A stretch of DNA of 64,000 nucleotides from Candidatus Cloacimonadota bacterium (GTDB lineage Bacteria; Cloacimonadota; Cloacimonadia; Cloacimonadales; TCS61). A program made the translations under genes and the position numbers. Each line of letters starts with the position of its first letter. Position 1 is the first letter of the stretch. The DNA lies in assembly GCA_030445745.1 (NCBI GenBank), contig JASUTE010000002.1, positions 143,655-207,654 of the forward strand, written 5' to 3'. Under the pieces are notes generated by a model, which had not been told where the DNA came from, did no database searches, and saw only the letters and a program-made list of their open reading frames with translations. Shown here in pieces: positions 50,872 to 59,127 of this stretch.

Positions 50872-51696
50872 TTATCTATAAATTATAGATGAAAGATAGC
50901 CAACAACCTGACTATTATCGTAACTGATATCACCAGAATGATAGTAGCATAAATTGTCAACCTGATTATACCCCGTGAGCTTAGCTAGATGTAGTAAAAA
51001 TAGGATGGGACCAAAACCGCAAGCTTCAATTTGGTGCGTGAATATCTGTCTTTCTATTTCATCTGTATCTTTGTTTTTCACCAATTCTGCAAGTTGGGAA
51101 TCCATTTTAGAAGCTAATTCGGCATTATGATAGTGGGAAAGGTCGCTACTGGCTACAAACAGGGTTTCTGCTAATTTATCTTGGAAAAGCTCGAATAATT
51201 TTTTAGCTAAATTGCTGCTGTTTTCATTGTTCTGGCGACCTATTAAAATCGGAACTATCTCTGCATCTGGATTCAAATGTTGGATAAAAGGTATTTGGAT
51301 TTCCAGAGAATTTTCGTTATAAAAAGCATTTTCTTCAAATTCAAAGTGAGGGAAATCCAGCAGTTTTTGTACTATTTCCGTGTTGATTTTAGCTTTACCC
51401 AGCGGAGTTTGATAGTAATCGTAATCTCCCACTGAATATTCAAAATGGTTGTATTGATGGCTGGCTGCAACTATAACCACAGTCTTTTTGTTTTTGTTCA
51501 TTGCAGCTTGGAAACCGTGGGCAGCGCATTTACCCGAGTAGGGATAACCCGCATGAGGTGAGATTATTCCCAATGGATGCTGGTAACTTTTTTCTAACTT
51601 AGCATTTTGTAAATAGTCGGCAATTTGGTTTTGCAGCTTTTGCGGGTTAGCTGTATAAAAACTACCAGCTAATTCACTTTGTTTAATTTTGTCCAT
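50872..51696 (-). CDS. amrB: MEMO-family protein (AmmeMemoRadiSam system protein B)
   Basis: This 274-residue protein belongs to the MEMO family, related to class III aromatic dioxygenases. Visible segments are LAGSFYTANPQKLQ, SPHAGYPYSGKCAAHGF, SLEIQIPFIQHL, VASSDLSHYHN and ACGFGPI. Histidines in the second and fourth are metal-site candidates. Enzymatic activity is uncertain for the family. It is the first gene of the MEMO-cNMP/FHA-AMMECR1 operon, with AAGGAG 5 bases before ATG. Confidence 0.92.
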   Translation of the reverse strand: MDKIKQSELAGSFYTANPQKLQNQIADYLQNAKLEKSYQHPLGIISPHAGYPYSGKCAAHGFQAAMNKNKKTVVIVAASHQYNHFEYSVGDYDYYQTPLGKAKINTEIVQKLLDFPHFEFEENAFYNENSLEIQIPFIQHLNPDAEIVPILIGRQNNENSSNLAKKLFELFQDKLAETLFVASSDLSHYHNAELASKMDSQLAELVKNKDTDEIERQIFTHQIEACGFGPILFLLHLAKLTGYNQVDNLCYYHSGDISYDNSQVVGYLSSIIYR

Positions 51697-51835: not shown

Positions 51836-53548
51836 ATGAAAAGAATAGCAATTACCACTGGAGATCCTGCTGGAATTGGCCCAGAAATTACTGCCAAAGC
51901 CCTGCGCTTTTATCCTTTGAATGCAGAGGTATGCTGGGTGGTATATGGAAAACTGCCCACACTTGCTGGCGGAAATAAAATTAGGAAAATAAGTAATGTG
52001 GAAGAGGCTGCGGAAGCTTCCCATATTTATTGGATAGAGATAGACGATGAAGATGTTAAGAGTGCGAAACCAAGCCAAAAATCTGGTAAAATAGCTTGGC
52101 AGATTTTAGAAAGATGTGTGCAAGATATTAAAGCAAATCAAATAGATGCCGTGGTAACTGCGCCAATTTCCAAAGAGCAAATTAGAAAAAATGAGCCGGA
52201 GTTTATTGGGCACACAGAATTTTTTGCTAGAAAATTTCATTCAGAAGTGATAATGAGCTTTTGGTGTCCAGATTTCAATGTTAGTTTACTCAGTACTCAC
52301 ATCTCATTGCGAGAAGTAACAAAGATTTTCCAAGCAAACAATATTGAACGAAAGCTTAGACTGATATACAATGAAACCGAGAAATACGCTTCTGGTAGTC
52401 GTTATGCTATGCTGGCAGTTAATCCACATGCAGGTGAAGCAGGTGCTTTTGGGGAAGAAGAGGCAATTTTACAACAAGTTCTTAAAAAATTACAAAAGCA
52501 AGGAATTCGTATTGATGGTCCTTTTCCGGCCGATGCCTTTTTTGCTAGGAAAGCACAAAACTATGATATGATAATCTCCGCTTATCACGACCAGGGGTTA
52601 ATTCCTTTCAAGCAGATTGCAGATAACAGGGGAGTGAATGTAACCCTTGGATTGCCATTTGTGCGAACTTCGGTTGACCACGGAACAGCTTTTGATATTG
52701 CTGGAAAGGGCAGAGCCAGTGCTGAAAGCATGGAACAGTCTATGTACTGGGCTGAAAGTAAATTGGTGGATGTGCAAGAAATAAATAATTATAGTGTTTT
52801 TGCACAATATTACGATGAATTCATGGAACATGTTCCCTATGAAAAATGGATAAAACTGATTTTGCGTATTTTTATAAAACAAAAACAGAGTAATCCCAAA
52901 AGTTGTTTGGAACTTGCTTGTGGAACTGCAAATGTAGCAATTAGGTTGGTAAGAAGAGGAGTTAGAATAGATGCTTGCGATATTTCACCACAGATGTTGA
53001 AAGTAGCCGCAGCAAAATCGCCAAAGCCTTATCTGTTCCAACACGATATGCTGCAAAAACTTCCTGCAAAAAAATATGATTTAGTTCTACTACTTTTCGA
53101 TAGTATCAATTATTTACATAATGGGAAACAGATGAAGCAATTATTAGAAAATGTGTATGAAACTTTGTTACCTGGCGGTATTTTTGTTTTTGATATAAGC
53201 ACACTGAAAAATACAATAGAAAATTTTGAAAATTATTTTGACCTCAAAGATAGTGAAAATGAATTTATAGTGCATATTAGTGAGTTTTTACCTGAAAATA
53301 GGGAACAGAAAACCACTCTTAATTTCTTTGTTAAAAAGCATGGGTTTTATAAGAGATACAAAGAAGTTCATAGGCAGAAAATCTTTACAGTAAACGAAAT
53401 AAGAGAATTTATAGGGAAGACAAAATTCGATTTAATTGGGATTTATGAAGCAGAAAGGCAAAAGAACTATTTAAATGCAAATTTGAAAAAGTTAGATAAA
53501 AAATTCTTCCGTCTGTTTTTTGTATTAGAAAAAGGTATTGATGAATAG
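51836..53548 (+). CDS. PdxA (4-hydroxythreonine-4-phosphate dehydrogenase) fused to a SAM-dependent methyltransferase
   Basis: This 570-residue single ORF joins two enzymes. Residues ~1-310 are PdxA-like, with TGDPAGIGPEIT, the metal-ligand histidines in GHTEFFA, VNPHAGEAGAFG and AYHDQGLIPFK, and SVDHGTAFDIAG. Residues ~318-570 are a class I methyltransferase, with the entry helix NNYSVFAQYYDEFMEHVPYEKW, motif I LELACGTANVAIRL (about 355), DACDISPQML and LLPGGIFVFDIST. PdxA oxidises 4-phosphohydroxy-L-threonine in vitamin B6 synthesis, and similar proteins act on other phosphosugars. The frame is open throughout, with no stop at the junction. GCGAGAAA precedes the ATG and a TTGACA lies at 51776. 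The 3' end overlaps rnhB. Confidence 0.88.
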   Translation: MKRIAITTGDPAGIGPEITAKALRFYPLNAEVCWVVYGKLPTLAGGNKIRKISNVEEAAEASHIYWIEIDDEDVKSAKPSQKSGKIAWQILERCVQDIKANQIDAVVTAPISKEQIRKNEPEFIGHTEFFARKFHSEVIMSFWCPDFNVSLLSTHISLREVTKIFQANNIERKLRLIYNETEKYASGSRYAMLAVNPHAGEAGAFGEEEAILQQVLKKLQKQGIRIDGPFPADAFFARKAQNYDMIISAYHDQGLIPFKQIADNRGVNVTLGLPFVRTSVDHGTAFDIAGKGRASAESMEQSMYWAESKLVDVQEINNYSVFAQYYDEFMEHVPYEKWIKLILRIFIKQKQSNPKSCLELACGTANVAIRLVRRGVRIDACDISPQMLKVAAAKSPKPYLFQHDMLQKLPAKKYDLVLLLFDSINYLHNGKQMKQLLENVYETLLPGGIFVFDISTLKNTIENFENYFDLKDSENEFIVHISEFLPENREQKTTLNFFVKKHGFYKRYKEVHRQKIFTVNEIREFIGKTKFDLIGIYEAERQKNYLNANLKKLDKKFFRLFFVLEKGIDE

Positions 53549-54158
53549 TATGATCTACAAAAATGAAGAAAAGTTTAGAAAACAGTATGGTATGATTGCG
53601 GGAGTAGATGAAGCTGGGCGCGGGCCTCTCGCCGGTCCCGTTGTAGTAGCTGCTGTAATATTGCAGTCTGGAGATAAGTTTGCCAAACTAAACGATTCCA
53701 AAAAACTAACAGCCAAAGTGCGAGCAGAACTTTTTCCAATCATAAAACAGAAAGCGATAAAATATAGTATTATAGAGGTATCGCCAGCCCAAATCGATGA
53801 AATGAACATTTTGCAGGCTACCTTATGGGGAATGCAGCAAGCTGTGGCAGAATTGGCAGAAAAGGATATTTTTAGTTTAATTGACGGAAATAGGGTGCCA
53901 AAGGGATTGTTGGGTGCAGCAGAAGCAATGGTGAAAGGTGATAGCCGTTTTGCTTCCATAGCTGCTGCTTCTATTTTGGCTAAAGTTCACCGAGATAATT
54001 TAATGCTGAAACTGCACGAGCGATTTCCTGAGTATAATTTTGCCAAAAACAAAGGCTATCCTACCAAAGAACATATGGCCGCTATCCGCAAATATGGCAT
54101 TACTCCTTTTCATCGGAAAAGTTACAGACCTGTACAGCAGTATACGTTCAATTTTTAA
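53541..54158 (+). CDS. rnhB: ribonuclease HII
   Basis: This 205-residue enzyme removes ribonucleotides from DNA. The active-site residues appear in GVDEAGRGPLAGPVV (Asp-Glu) and in the later segments VKGDSRFASIAAASILAKV and LHERFPEYNFAKNKGYPTKEH. The ORF track starts with a TTG at 53538. I use the ATG three bases later (53541), still inside the pdxA-fusion gene, with AAAAAGGT upstream. A third ATG at 53550 is also possible. It ends at a bidirectional hairpin. Confidence 0.95.
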   Translation: MNSMIYKNEEKFRKQYGMIAGVDEAGRGPLAGPVVVAAVILQSGDKFAKLNDSKKLTAKVRAELFPIIKQKAIKYSIIEVSPAQIDEMNILQATLWGMQQAVAELAEKDIFSLIDGNRVPKGLLGAAEAMVKGDSRFASIAAASILAKVHRDNLMLKLHERFPEYNFAKNKGYPTKEHMAAIRKYGITPFHRKSYRPVQQYTFNF

Positions 54159-54209: not shown

Positions 54210-54854
54210 CTATTTCATTTCAATTTGCATTTCACCAGGATTATTTCGAGGAGTGAATTCTACTTTTTTGCCACCAGCGGGATGAGCAGCTTTTTTGAAG
54301 CCATCATATGCGAAGATGGTAGTTACATCCAATTCAATATATTCGTTCATAGCTACAAATACATTGCCCCAATCGTCCACTAGCTGAATATCCCAAAATC
54401 CAGGGCTAACAGTCCAAGTGATACTCTCTCCAGGACCGATATCACTAGATATTTGGTTGTTTCCCCAATATTGGTCGTCACTATCAGAAATATAAACTTC
54501 TTCGATATAAAAAATATTGGAATTGTTCCAAATAGTAATGGCTCCGCCATCAGCATAAATCTTGAATTTCTTGCTTTCACCTGCCTCAATAGAAAACTCA
54601 ATGTCACTAGTGAAAACATGATAACCGCTATAATCAATTTCTACATCTTTTTCTTCTACACCAAAGATATTAGAAGAAAGCTCCCACGATTTTTCGTAAT
54701 CTTGATTTGCCTCTAAAGTAATTTCGTTACCGTGATTAATTCTAAACCAGACATCATCGTTACTGTTATTTACCACGGTTAGTTCCCCGTTATCTGTACA
54801 ACCGATGAGTACTAAAGCTAGCAATAAAATGGTAAAAATACCAAGCTTCTCCAT
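54210..54854 (-). CDS. lipoprotein with beta-sandwich repeats, unknown function
   Basis: This 214-residue protein has a signal peptide ending in a lipobox (LVLIGC, then TDNGELTVVN), so it is a predicted lipoprotein. The body is a pair of similar beta-rich units: one begins GELTVVNNSNDDVWFRINHG, the other carries IYVSDSDD/WGN-type strands. These resemble binding modules with aromatic turns. I do not recognise a family. I use the ATG at 54854 because AAAGGAGG lies 6 bases upstream and the signal sequence begins there. It is divergent from the kinase gene. Confidence 0.8.
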   Translation of the reverse strand: MEKLGIFTILLLALVLIGCTDNGELTVVNNSNDDVWFRINHGNEITLEANQDYEKSWELSSNIFGVEEKDVEIDYSGYHVFTSDIEFSIEAGESKKFKIYADGGAITIWNNSNIFYIEEVYISDSDDQYWGNNQISSDIGPGESITWTVSPGFWDIQLVDDWGNVFVAMNEYIELDVTTIFAYDGFKKAAHPAGGKKVEFTPRNNPGEMQIEMK

Positions 54855-54978
54855 AAATCCTCCTTTTATATTATACCAAACCAGAGACATAGTAACAAAT
54901 TACGCAAGAAGTTTTTGTAAAAATGAGTTGTATTCAGCAAGAGGTGGGGATAAAGAATTGACAAGAAACGTAACAATA

Positions 54979-57900
54979 ATGAAACTAGTAGATATGAAAA
55001 AGATAAGAAAAATTGGAGAAGGTGCTTTTGCTCAGGTTTGGCTGATGCAAAAGCAAAGTGGAGAAAAGGTAGTAGTAAAACATTTTCAAAAAGACCACAT
55101 AGAGCAGGCTAGAAGAGAGTATCTCTTCCTTAAAACTGTGGCTTCTGCTCAGGTCGTGCAGGTTTATGGCTTTAACGAAGAGCAGGGGCAGCTAGAGCTG
55201 GAATATGTTTCTGGAGAAAAGCCAGAGCCATTTTCCAATCCGGCAAAGCACTCTGTTTGGATGACCCATCTGGCTTCGGTAATTTCCAAGATACATTCGT
55301 ATGGAATTTGTTACAACGACCTGAAACCAGATAATGTGATCGATCGGGAAGGCAAACCAGTGCTGATAGATTTTGGTTTAGCAACTCCTGCTAGATATCA
55401 AGATGGAATCTTTCGGGGTAGTCTGGGCTATGCAGCTCCCGAAAAGATATTTTTCCAAACAAATTCGCAAGCAGCCGATGTTTTTAGCTGGGCGCTTTTA
55501 TATATTTATCTAATTTCAGGAAATTTGCCAGCAGAAGATTTGGGTTTAGAAGTTTATAAAGAACTCTTGCAAGATGACGAGAAGTGGCAGAGCTATTTTA
55601 AAAAATATATAGATAATAAGCTGATCGTTAGCTGTTTGGCTCTGGAGCCTAGGAAGCGGCCCTCCATGGCAGAAGTAACTTATGAGCTGGCTCGGGAAAA
55701 TAATTTGGATTTGGAATATTTGGAAGAAGAGCTTGTAAGCAACAAACTGTTTGATGCTCAACATGAAGCGGTGAGACAACTAACTGAAACCGGCAGATTG
55801 AATTATGATAATGCCGATGAAATCGATAAAATATTGGATAGAGCTGTGTTGTGGGCAGAGTCTACTCGGAAAAGAGCTGTAATTTTAAAAGAAACAGACT
55901 ATGTTTGGCAGCCAGAGTTATTTTTTGGTGAGATATCTGAAGAAAAGATAGCCGAGGATGAAATTGAGCAATTATTACAGGCATCAGCTTCCCAAATTAT
56001 TTTGGTACGCGATGACCCGCAAATTCGCACAGAACTTTTTGATAAATTAGCAGCTAAAAAGGAATTTTGGCAACTGCAAAAAGCAAATTATAGCGATTTG
56101 GGAAATGTAAGCCAAGCTGAGATGAAAACTTTTGCTGACCAGCATCAGATAGAAGTTGGGCTTGAAGATTACCAACCAGCTCGGCCCGGTTTCGCTAGAA
56201 TCTGGTTACAAAGCAAAATAGGTGTATATGCGTCAGCTTCCCAACAAACAAAAGATCTTATCCTTATTCTTTCTCGAATGTCTGCTCCATTACCGCTTAG
56301 TTTATTGCAAGAAATTGCTAAGGATAACTCTTTGGGGGAAGTTCTAGCTCAGCCAGAGGTTAGTTTTCAGGGAGATGCTATAATCTATACAGGCCAGCCG
56401 GTTTCCGGTGAGTTGAACTTAAAATTTGCCAATGAATTATACGATTTAGCTCAAAAGCATAAAGAAATTAAAACAGCTATGCAACTGGCCTTTTTACTGG
56501 GTGAAAAACAGCAGGCATTGGAATTACTTCAGGAAAATATTGAAAATTATATTCAGCTTGAGTATTACAATTCAGCCTACCAGACTTTACAGGTTATGAA
56601 AGCAAAATTGGGAGATTTACCGTTAAATCTGCAGAAAAAAGAGGCTTTTCTTTTGCGCAAACAGGGGAAGTTGGAAGCTGCTTTAAATTGCTATGAAGCA
56701 ATAGAAGTGGATGATAAAGACATGCAATTTGCAGTTTTGGCAGCAGATAAAGCAGTGGTTTTGCAGGAATTAGGAAGATTGGCAGAGGCAGCTGAGATTT
56801 ACAAAAATCTACTGCAAATTTTTAAGGAAAATAACAAAAATAAGGATTATTTGCGTACATTGAACAATTTGGGAGTGGTTGAAGTTCAGGATAATAATTT
56901 TGCTGGTGCTCAGAAAACTTTTTTGCAGCTTTTGGAAACAGCTCAAAACTACAGCGATAAACAATTTATCACTATGGCACATTTGAATTTGGCAGATGTG
57001 TTTTTACGCCAGGCTGAATGGAAACGCAGCTTACTGCAGGCGCAAACCGCTGCCGAACTAGGTGCAAAGTTTGGGAAAAAGAACATTGAAATTTGGGCAC
57101 AAATATATGGAATGCAGGCGCAATGGGGTTTAGGTAAATTCGAGCTTCTGCCCCAAATTATTGAGAAATTGATTGAAGATGAACAACTGCAGGAAAATGC
57201 ACAGTTATACTGCAGTCTACTGATTACCAGCTTGAATATAGCAGCAGCTTTAGAGGAAAAGTTGAGTGAAAAAATATATGAAATTATTAATACCCGGCAA
57301 TTCCAGTTAACTCCTGATGAAAAGGTGGAGATTTTCTGGTATTCTATTCGTACCCAAAATTACTATCAGGCCAATCAGCTTATAGAGCAGCTTCCCAATA
57401 GCTACCTGCAAGATTTGGCGGCAGCTTTACTGAGTTCCCAACAGGAGCAGGTTTTACAAAAATTGCAAGACCTGGCCTTGCAAAACGATATTTTTTTGCT
57501 GTTGAATACAGCTTTTCAAATCATGCAGAGTGGGCTAGTAGATAAAATTAAGTTTTGGCCAGAAATTAACAAATATGAGCAGCTTCACTCGTTTGCTCCT
57601 TTCCAACTTATAAAAAAAGAAACACAAGTGGCTTCCCCCAAAGCGGGTATGGATATGCTTTGGGAAATTATCTCGAAAATACACAGTAACGAAACTTTCC
57701 AAAATACCATGCAGACAGTTTTGGCAGGCATTATTAAAATAGGAAAATTGCAAAGGGCAGTCTTTTTTGCTTTTCAAGAAGATAATATAGAACCTGTGGT
57801 GGGATTAAACTCGGAGTTAGAATCTATCGACATGGAAACGCTTTCGATAAGTACTACAATTCTGCAGGAAACGCTGAAATTGGGTGAAACTAGATATTTT

Positions 57901-59127
57901 TATGACCTGCAGGAAGATATTCCTTTCGATATCCATTCCAGCATTTTTGGGCTAGGTTTAAGAACAGCTGTGTGCTATCCGTTGATTGTTAACAACAGGA
58001 TAGAAGGTGTAATTTATGCCGATACTACTAACGATCGGAGGTTTGATGAAGTAGAACAGAATCTACTGCAAACCGTTTTTGCGCAAGCTAAAATAGCTTT
58101 GGAAAAAACAAAGAAGATAGAAAATTTGAAAACTCAACAACAACGTAGTTTACCTGATAACCAAATTTTCCCAGAAATTATTGGAAATAGCAAAGAGATG
58201 CAACAAATTTATGAAGTTATGAAAACTGTGGGCGAACATAACGTAAATGTGTTGATAACCGGTCCTACTGGGAGCGGTAAGGAGTTAATTGCCAGAGCGT
58301 TGCATAACGAATATAACGCTGAAGCACCTTTTATCCCTGTTAATTGTGCTGCTATTCCTGAAAACTTGCTGGAGAGCGAGCTTTTTGGCTATGCAAAAGG
58401 AGCTTTTACTGGTGCCGACCGCAATCGCAAAGGTAAAATAGAAGCTGCGCATGGCGGAACACTGTTTTTAGATGAAATAGCCGAATTACCTGCTGTGCTA
58501 CAGGCTAAATTGCTACGAGTGCTACAAGAAAGAGTAATCACACCACTTGGCTCCAACCAAGAAATTCCAATCTCTATTCGACTTATTTGTGCTACAAACC
58601 AAGATATCGAAGCAATGGTGGAAAAAGGGAGCTTTCGCCAGGATCTCTTCTATCGTATCAACGTGGTTTCTATAAAAATGCCTCCATTAAAGGATAGAAA
58701 AGATGACATTTTGCCGTTAGCAGAATATTTTCTGCAAAGATATAACAAAAAGTTCGGCAAAAATATTAAATCAATTTCCAACGATTCTGCTCGCTTGCTT
58801 TTGAATCATAATTGGCCTGGCAATGTACGGCAACTGGAAAATTTGGTGGAAAAGGCAGTGCTGATGTCCTCGGGTGATTTTCTGGAAGTGCAGAATTTAC
58901 TCAAAACCGATAACCTGAAACTCTTCTCTGCCGATGAGCCAATCCCCTCTGATTGGCAGGAGTATAAAAAATATCGCAAAAGATTCGTTGACCAGCTGGA
59001 CAGGCGTTTTGCAAAAAAAATAATCACGGAAAATAATGGTAATATTCACCGTGCCAGCCAGCAAGCTCATATTCCCCGTCCCCAAATCTACCGCATACTT
59101 AACAAAAAAGTTACAGAGAAACAATAA
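54979..59127 (+). CDS. fused Ser/Thr protein kinase - TPR - GAF - sigma-54 activator (enhancer-binding protein)
   Basis: This protein has about 1,382 residues from the chosen start. In order: a Hanks-type kinase (1-260) with GEGAFAQVW, VVKHF lysine K34, catalytic D114 in YNDLKPDNV (non-RD), DFG D131 and APE. Then a long helical TPR-like region (about 560-760) and a GAF-like domain (about 890-1045). A sigma-54 AAA+ domain (about 1085-1310) follows, with Walker A GPTGSGKE and the sigma-54-contacting GAFTGA (about 1141). A Fis-type helix-turn-helix closes it (HRASQQAHIPRPQIYRIL). It should open promoters bound by sigma-54 RNA polymerase. The ORF track starts at 54805 inside the divergent lipoprotein gene. 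A TTG at 54958 with AAGAGGTGGGG upstream is an alternative start. A consensus sigma-54 promoter lies 209 bases after the stop. Confidence 0.9.
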   Translation: MKLVDMKKIRKIGEGAFAQVWLMQKQSGEKVVVKHFQKDHIEQARREYLFLKTVASAQVVQVYGFNEEQGQLELEYVSGEKPEPFSNPAKHSVWMTHLASVISKIHSYGICYNDLKPDNVIDREGKPVLIDFGLATPARYQDGIFRGSLGYAAPEKIFFQTNSQAADVFSWALLYIYLISGNLPAEDLGLEVYKELLQDDEKWQSYFKKYIDNKLIVSCLALEPRKRPSMAEVTYELARENNLDLEYLEEELVSNKLFDAQHEAVRQLTETGRLNYDNADEIDKILDRAVLWAESTRKRAVILKETDYVWQPELFFGEISEEKIAEDEIEQLLQASASQIILVRDDPQIRTELFDKLAAKKEFWQLQKANYSDLGNVSQAEMKTFADQHQIEVGLEDYQPARPGFARIWLQSKIGVYASASQQTKDLILILSRMSAPLPLSLLQEIAKDNSLGEVLAQPEVSFQGDAIIYTGQPVSGELNLKFANELYDLAQKHKEIKTAMQLAFLLGEKQQALELLQENIENYIQLEYYNSAYQTLQVMKAKLGDLPLNLQKKEAFLLRKQGKLEAALNCYEAIEVDDKDMQFAVLAADKAVVLQELGRLAEAAEIYKNLLQIFKENNKNKDYLRTLNNLGVVEVQDNNFAGAQKTFLQLLETAQNYSDKQFITMAHLNLADVFLRQAEWKRSLLQAQTAAELGAKFGKKNIEIWAQIYGMQAQWGLGKFELLPQIIEKLIEDEQLQENAQLYCSLLITSLNIAAALEEKLSEKIYEIINTRQFQLTPDEKVEIFWYSIRTQNYYQANQLIEQLPNSYLQDLAAALLSSQQEQVLQKLQDLALQNDIFLLLNTAFQIMQSGLVDKIKFWPEINKYEQLHSFAPFQLIKKETQVASPKAGMDMLWEIISKIHSNETFQNTMQTVLAGIIKIGKLQRAVFFAFQEDNIEPVVGLNSELESIDMETLSISTTILQETLKLGETRYFYDLQEDIPFDIHSSIFGLGLRTAVCYPLIVNNRIEGVIYADTTNDRRFDEVEQNLLQTVFAQAKIALEKTKKIENLKTQQQRSLPDNQIFPEIIGNSKEMQQIYEVMKTVGEHNVNVLITGPTGSGKELIARALHNEYNAEAPFIPVNCAAIPENLLESELFGYAKGAFTGADRNRKGKIEAAHGGTLFLDEIAELPAVLQAKLLRVLQERVITPLGSNQEIPISIRLICATNQDIEAMVEKGSFRQDLFYRINVVSIKMPPLKDRKDDILPLAEYFLQRYNKKFGKNIKSISNDSARLLLNHNWPGNVRQLENLVEKAVLMSSGDFLEVQNLLKTDNLKLFSADEPIPSDWQEYKKYRKRFVDQLDRRFAKKIITENNGNIHRASQQAHIPRPQIYRILNKKVTEKQ

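Follow-up and report, generated by a model that had tools for sequence, protein, structure and literature searches.

A conserved PdxA-methyltransferase fusion in Candidatus Cloacimonadota whose PdxA half has probably been kept beyond its catalytic role

Results

Gene organisation and domain structure

In the window, the 64,000-nucleotide stretch of a Candidatus Cloacimonadota genome analysed here, one open reading frame on the forward strand (51836..53548, ATG to TAG, 570 residues plus stop) joins a PdxA (4-hydroxythreonine-4-phosphate dehydrogenase) to a class I SAM-dependent methyltransferase. PF04166, TIGR00557 and an alignment to 1ps6 place the PdxA domain at 51836..52774 (+; residues 1-313), whilst PF13649, solved relatives and invariant columns place the methyltransferase domain at 52775..53545 (+; residues 314-570). 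The junction or linker (52763..52789, +; about residues 310-318) is hypervariable in an alignment of relatives. Downstream, rnhB (RNase HII; 53541..54158, +) starts at the ATG at 53541 and shares 8 bases with the end of the fusion, stop included, the ordinary overlap reported in a preliminary description of this DNA. Upstream lies a divergent gene (50872..51696, -) which, from its type of sequence, we take to belong to the Memo family; this neighbour is conserved for most fused copies.

The PdxA half is matched by the Pfam PdxA family PF04166 at residues 48-306 (E 2.2e-83) and by the NCBIfam model TIGR00557 at residues 3-307, with 308.6 bits exceeding the equivalog cut-off of 290.35. Six motifs (GDPAGIGPE, GHTE, STH, NPHAGE, HDQG and SVDHGTA) are present and invariant among 20 aligned relatives. 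The histidines of TH, NPH and HDQ align with those of E. coli PdxA (1ps6), where they bind the metal. The stand-alone E. coli enzyme (1ps6/1ptm) and the fusion share the full domain and all catalytic motifs, and the genome of the window also encodes a PdxJ partner. Whereas a stand-alone PdxA ends after about 330 residues, the fused one continues into a C-terminal methyltransferase. The figure of about 330 residues in the preliminary description is right as the usual length of PdxA, but the PdxA half here is a little shorter, at about 311 residues.

The C-terminal half is matched by PF13649 (Methyltransf_25) at residues 358-448 (E 5.3e-14; 53.1 bits against a gathering cut-off of 27) and carries the motifs ELACGTAN, FDSINYL, FVFDIST and E-x-H. 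The SAM-binding motif I (ELACGTA) is intact, its C-G-T core being invariant in relatives. A phmmer search aligned residues 317-535 with the solved methyltransferase 1y8c (E 1.3e-18), and 3d2l and 1wzn are further solved relatives. Because stand-alone relatives of 259-263 residues start where the junction of the fusion lies, the methyltransferase half is complete; together with the 1y8c alignment, this upholds the earlier view of a whole methyltransferase with its motif I intact. An AlphaFold model of all 570 residues is confident for both halves (pLDDT 89.3, pTM 0.86). The frame at 51836-53548 is a complete PdxA and a complete class I methyltransferase with a very short linker between them.

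Methyltransferases of the 1y8c/3d2l type, found in Clostridia and others, are stand-alone proteins of about 245-290 residues; the alignment to 1y8c spans the full length of the fused domain, which differs from them in its attachment to PdxA. The fused methyltransferase passes no curated family cut-off: among the NCBIfam families compared (daptide methyltransferase, CpaM, UbiE, BioC and others) its best score was 54.4 bits against a cut-off of 175, and its stand-alone relatives likewise fell under the NCBIfam cut-offs. Its family resemblance makes a small molecule the likeliest substrate. The nearest methyltransferases found outside the phylum are stand-alone genes, and in two Clostridia loci the adjoining gene is hslO, not pdxA. 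An identification with Bacillus yqeM was considered and dropped, as we found no literature for it and the Clostridia neighbours (hslO and others) were not those expected.

Conservation and origin of the fusion

Besides the window, the whole fusion was found in 28 of the 59 relatives searched within the family and order. These copies are 41-55% identical to it across both halves, and further partial copies end at contig edges. A collection of named genomes agreed with this for Candidatus Cloacimonadota. The fusion followed by rnhB is seen in about 30 other genomes of the phylum, from several families and many independent assemblies. Indeed, rnhB comes next in nearly every fused copy whose contig extends far enough. 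The junction in relatives consists of 8-12 variable, stop-free residues, and all six catalytic motifs occur in 30/30 full-length PdxA halves. The fusion is real and conserved across the lineage. The preliminary description had judged it to be in frame and no frame artefact, had proposed a search of other genomes, and took two separate genes in relatives as a finding that would refute it; the junction is open in about 30 further Cloacimonadota genomes, and most relatives show a single fused frame.

Our literature searches found no earlier description of a PdxA-methyltransferase fusion, and an account of PLP pathways mentions no PdxA fusion (PMC9997740); judged by the literature searched, the fusion is apparently previously undescribed. 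A likeness exists in the fusions of DUF1537 to PLP genes, in which a PLP-pathway gene likewise carries a second domain (PMC4921024). However, the DUF1537 partner is a kinase recruited to recycle 4-hydroxythreonine (PMC4921024), whereas the partner here is a methyltransferase that outlives PdxA activity.

Three sets of loci bear on the origin of the fusion. In family f13, which belongs to a different order of the same class, a stand-alone pdxA lies directly before rnhB in 7/7 loci examined, and no methyltransferase of the fusion type was found in that family at E 1e-30. Outside the order, in family f12, one locus (L173) has PdxA fused to the start of the methyltransferase before the contig end cuts it. 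Genome G039 has PdxA before rnhB, and PdxJ, with the methyltransferase absent; it would represent either a later loss of the methyltransferase or an early branch. The pdxA-rnhB adjacency without a methyltransferase in f13 suggests how the fusion arose. On the simplest reading, a methyltransferase gene was probably inserted between the members of an ancestral pdxA-rnhB pair, and in-frame read-through would then have produced the fusion.

Vitamin B6 genes in the genome and the phylum

The genome of the window (2.04 Mb, 99.3% complete) was searched for the genes of vitamin B6 synthesis, including the separate pdxA and pdxJ that the preliminary description had asked about. It encodes one PdxJ (C26:24656-25345, E 1.5e-93), whilst the PdxA of the fusion is the only one found, a search for a second pdxA elsewhere in the genome having returned none, and PdxS was not found. 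PdxJ serves as a signature gene of the DXP-dependent route (PMC9997740). With a single PdxA, PdxJ present and no PdxS, the fused PdxA is therefore the sole candidate for its step in DXP-dependent B6 synthesis, and its half of the protein is probably a working enzyme of that route. The alternative PdxS/PdxT route was rejected, as PdxS is absent from this genome and almost everywhere else in the phylum. A single genome of the phylum sample, from family f9, gave a strong full-length PdxS match (G049:C5:44632-45228). The preliminary description had also raised the possibility that the PdxA half acts on another phosphosugar. This is disfavoured by the PdxA equivalog score given above, and an assignment to the PdxA2-type D-threonate 4-phosphate dehydrogenases fails by a wide margin (NF002891, 190.9 bits against a cut-off of 583).

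Two further features of the pathway were observed. The C-terminal domain of PdxH (PF10590) was found in 0/125 Cloacimonadota genomes, though many have PdxA and PdxJ; by this measure PNP oxidase is missing across the sample, and its absence from genomes with PdxA and PdxJ is a known hole (PMC9997740). Moreover, four genomes (G019, G014, G004 and G026; loci L045, L046, L047 and L048) have a divergent PdxJ scoring about 200 bits, compared with about 310 elsewhere. These four have no PF04166 PdxA, and in them the methyltransferase stands alone before rnhB.

Fate of the PdxA half

In families f9, f10 and f11, the methyltransferase is present in 48 genomes, none of which has a PF04166 match (0/48) and only one of which (G079) has PdxJ. 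By contrast, 32/39 of the PdxA genomes of families f1-f8 have PdxJ by hand count, those without it being mostly incomplete. Nearly all intact f9-f11 copies nevertheless carry an in-frame N-terminal domain of 194-274 residues ahead of the methyltransferase. Pfam gives no PdxA or other recognised match in these domains, and none of 43 distinct remnants carries any of the six PdxA catalytic motifs. An AlphaFold model of one such domain, built from an alignment of 21 of them with PdxA left out, is confident (pLDDT 86, pTM 0.85) and shows the fold common to PdxA, isocitrate dehydrogenase and phosphotransacetylase. As modelled, the f9-f11 domain would be PdxA-like in fold and no PdxA enzyme.

Some copies have gone further. 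The methyltransferase occurs without any N-terminal domain in genera g5 and g15 and in genome G100, which makes the domain dispensable in some lineages. In g5 and g15, which form one clade near the full fusions in the methyltransferase tree, the PdxA half is lost completely. In G100 (L171, 204-1825), the lone methyltransferase has moved away from rnhB and sits beside what looks by eye like a DUF2007-PyrE-like fusion.

The f10 copies group together in the same tree. L081 from f11 and L104 from f9 fall among full fusions, L081 grouping with the full fusion L070 (support 89/87). The tree suggests two or three separate decays of the PdxA half, although a single clade of decayed copies is not rejected by the AU test (p 0.104).

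Discussion

The methyltransferase persists where PdxA and PdxJ are both gone, and PdxA is also found without the methyltransferase; this fusion need not imply any link between the two reactions. The earlier remark that the pair has no obvious pathway logic is thereby strengthened. We consider it likely that the gene encodes a bifunctional protein with separable halves, the PdxA half being a structural partner of the methyltransferase that was kept after catalysis was lost. The N-terminal half would be an active PdxA, working with the separate PdxJ in the DXP-dependent B6 route, and the C-terminal half a class I SAM-dependent methyltransferase with an independent substrate, probably a small molecule. 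Where B6 synthesis was lost, the PdxA half would have shrunk and lost its whole active site, yet stayed as a folded domain. PdxA is a tight dimer whose active site sits where the two subunits meet (PMC10471632), and since PdxA dimerises so tightly, a domain fused to it would be brought into a dimer as well. The simplest account is that the methyltransferase came to depend on the PdxA domain for dimerisation or for stability and folding, so that the domain may outlive catalysis. More tentatively, it is possible that in the Cloacimonadaceae and two further families the PdxA domain became, after B6 loss, a pseudoenzyme that serves the methyltransferase in assembly or regulation, perhaps repeatedly. 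If so, a biosynthetic enzyme would have ended up, through fusion, as a non-catalytic subunit.

Evidence on selection weighs between this structural role and a neutral one, in which the fusion is meaningless for both halves and the remnant persists for the sole reason that an essential methyltransferase is encoded behind it, downstream of the same start codon. Thirteen pairs of closely related copies were compared, several from the same species and so not all independent, and some with dS near saturation; the dN/dS of the remnant was 0.11-0.44, with all bootstrap intervals below 1. The remnant is under purifying selection, constrained less than an enzyme. Its median dN/dS in these pairs is about twice that of the attached methyltransferase (0.24 versus 0.12), whereas the two halves of full fusions have similar medians in nine pairs (PdxA half 0.12, methyltransferase 0.13). 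The relaxed constraint would suit a passenger, as would the shorter and far more divergent sequence of remnants compared with functional PdxA, and the few lineages in which the methyltransferase stands alone. However, dN/dS well below 1 in 13/13 pairs, of which selection against misfolding could account for a part, and the confident fold predicted for the remnant make a purely neutral passenger rather unlikely.

A structural partner descended from PdxA also presupposes that the f9-f11 domain is a decayed PdxA, and did not replace PdxA at that position as an unrelated domain or one of phosphotransacetylase type. In a Foldseek search of the PDB, the best E-value indeed belonged to the phosphotransacetylase 1td9 (3.4e-4), and Pfam, as noted, recognises no PdxA. 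However, PdxA members are among the best matches: 6xmy came behind 1td9 (1.3e-3 for 6xmy), and the PdxA-family structure 8zi8, E. coli PdxA 1ptm (TMq 0.51) and 1ps6 were found along with isocitrate dehydrogenases, 1ptm having the top TM-score among the matches listed. In profile comparisons, the first 40-85 columns were co-linear with the start of PdxA, a weak match (P 2.5e-4 to 1.3e-3 for most profiles, four of them giving 3e-4 to 8e-4, compared with 0.04-0.46 for reversed controls), and the profile of subgroup g37 gave no match to PdxA. The start of the domain aligns with the start of PdxA, an ALRF-P stretch included. Because the domain holds the same position with the same rnhB neighbour, and because PdxA was lost together with PdxJ, PdxA is favoured over phosphotransacetylase as its source. 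Fold, position and the weak N-terminal profile match strongly indicate that the remnant is derived from PdxA, and a swap appears quite improbable.

We give still less credence to a pathway partnership, in which the methyltransferase would act on a B6 intermediate or vitamer and the fusion would channel or protect an unstable metabolite, as pathway or damage control. Precedent exists, since functions have been discovered through fusions between uncharacterised domains and B-vitamin genes, DUF1537 for PLP among them (PMC4921024). Furthermore, the product of PdxA is described as highly unstable and its substrate as toxic (PMC10471632), and the missing PdxH leaves a hole in the pathway. Yet the oxidation carried out by PdxH is not replaceable by methyl transfer, the methyltransferase keeps its motifs intact in the 48 genomes without PdxA, 47 of which also lack PdxJ, and G039, with PdxA and PdxJ, lacks the methyltransferase. 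Finally, a missed stop or an assembly error at the junction has virtually no chance of being right, as the junction is open in the same way in about 30 genomes, which represent independent assemblies and different genera; this refutes it and excludes chance and sequencing error.

The fusion is conserved through much of an uncultured phylum. Separate genes, the fusion, a decayed PdxA half and its complete loss together form a clear natural series, in which one can study how fusion ties enzymes to each other and how an enzyme of biosynthesis can become a non-catalytic domain. There is a warning here for annotation too: the protein is neither a PdxA only nor a methyltransferase only, and a fusion alone does not prove a shared pathway.

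Two minor observations may be added. Locus L057 (genome G009) comes from a record titled Armatimonadetes bacterium bin.262, yet the genome search assigns it to the family of the window; the public title has probably been misassigned. Elsewhere in the window, a 1440-residue open reading frame (54805-59127) appears by eye, from its translation, to combine a protein-kinase-like N-terminus, a GAF-like part, a sigma-54 activator AAA domain and a helix-turn-helix-like C-terminal end.
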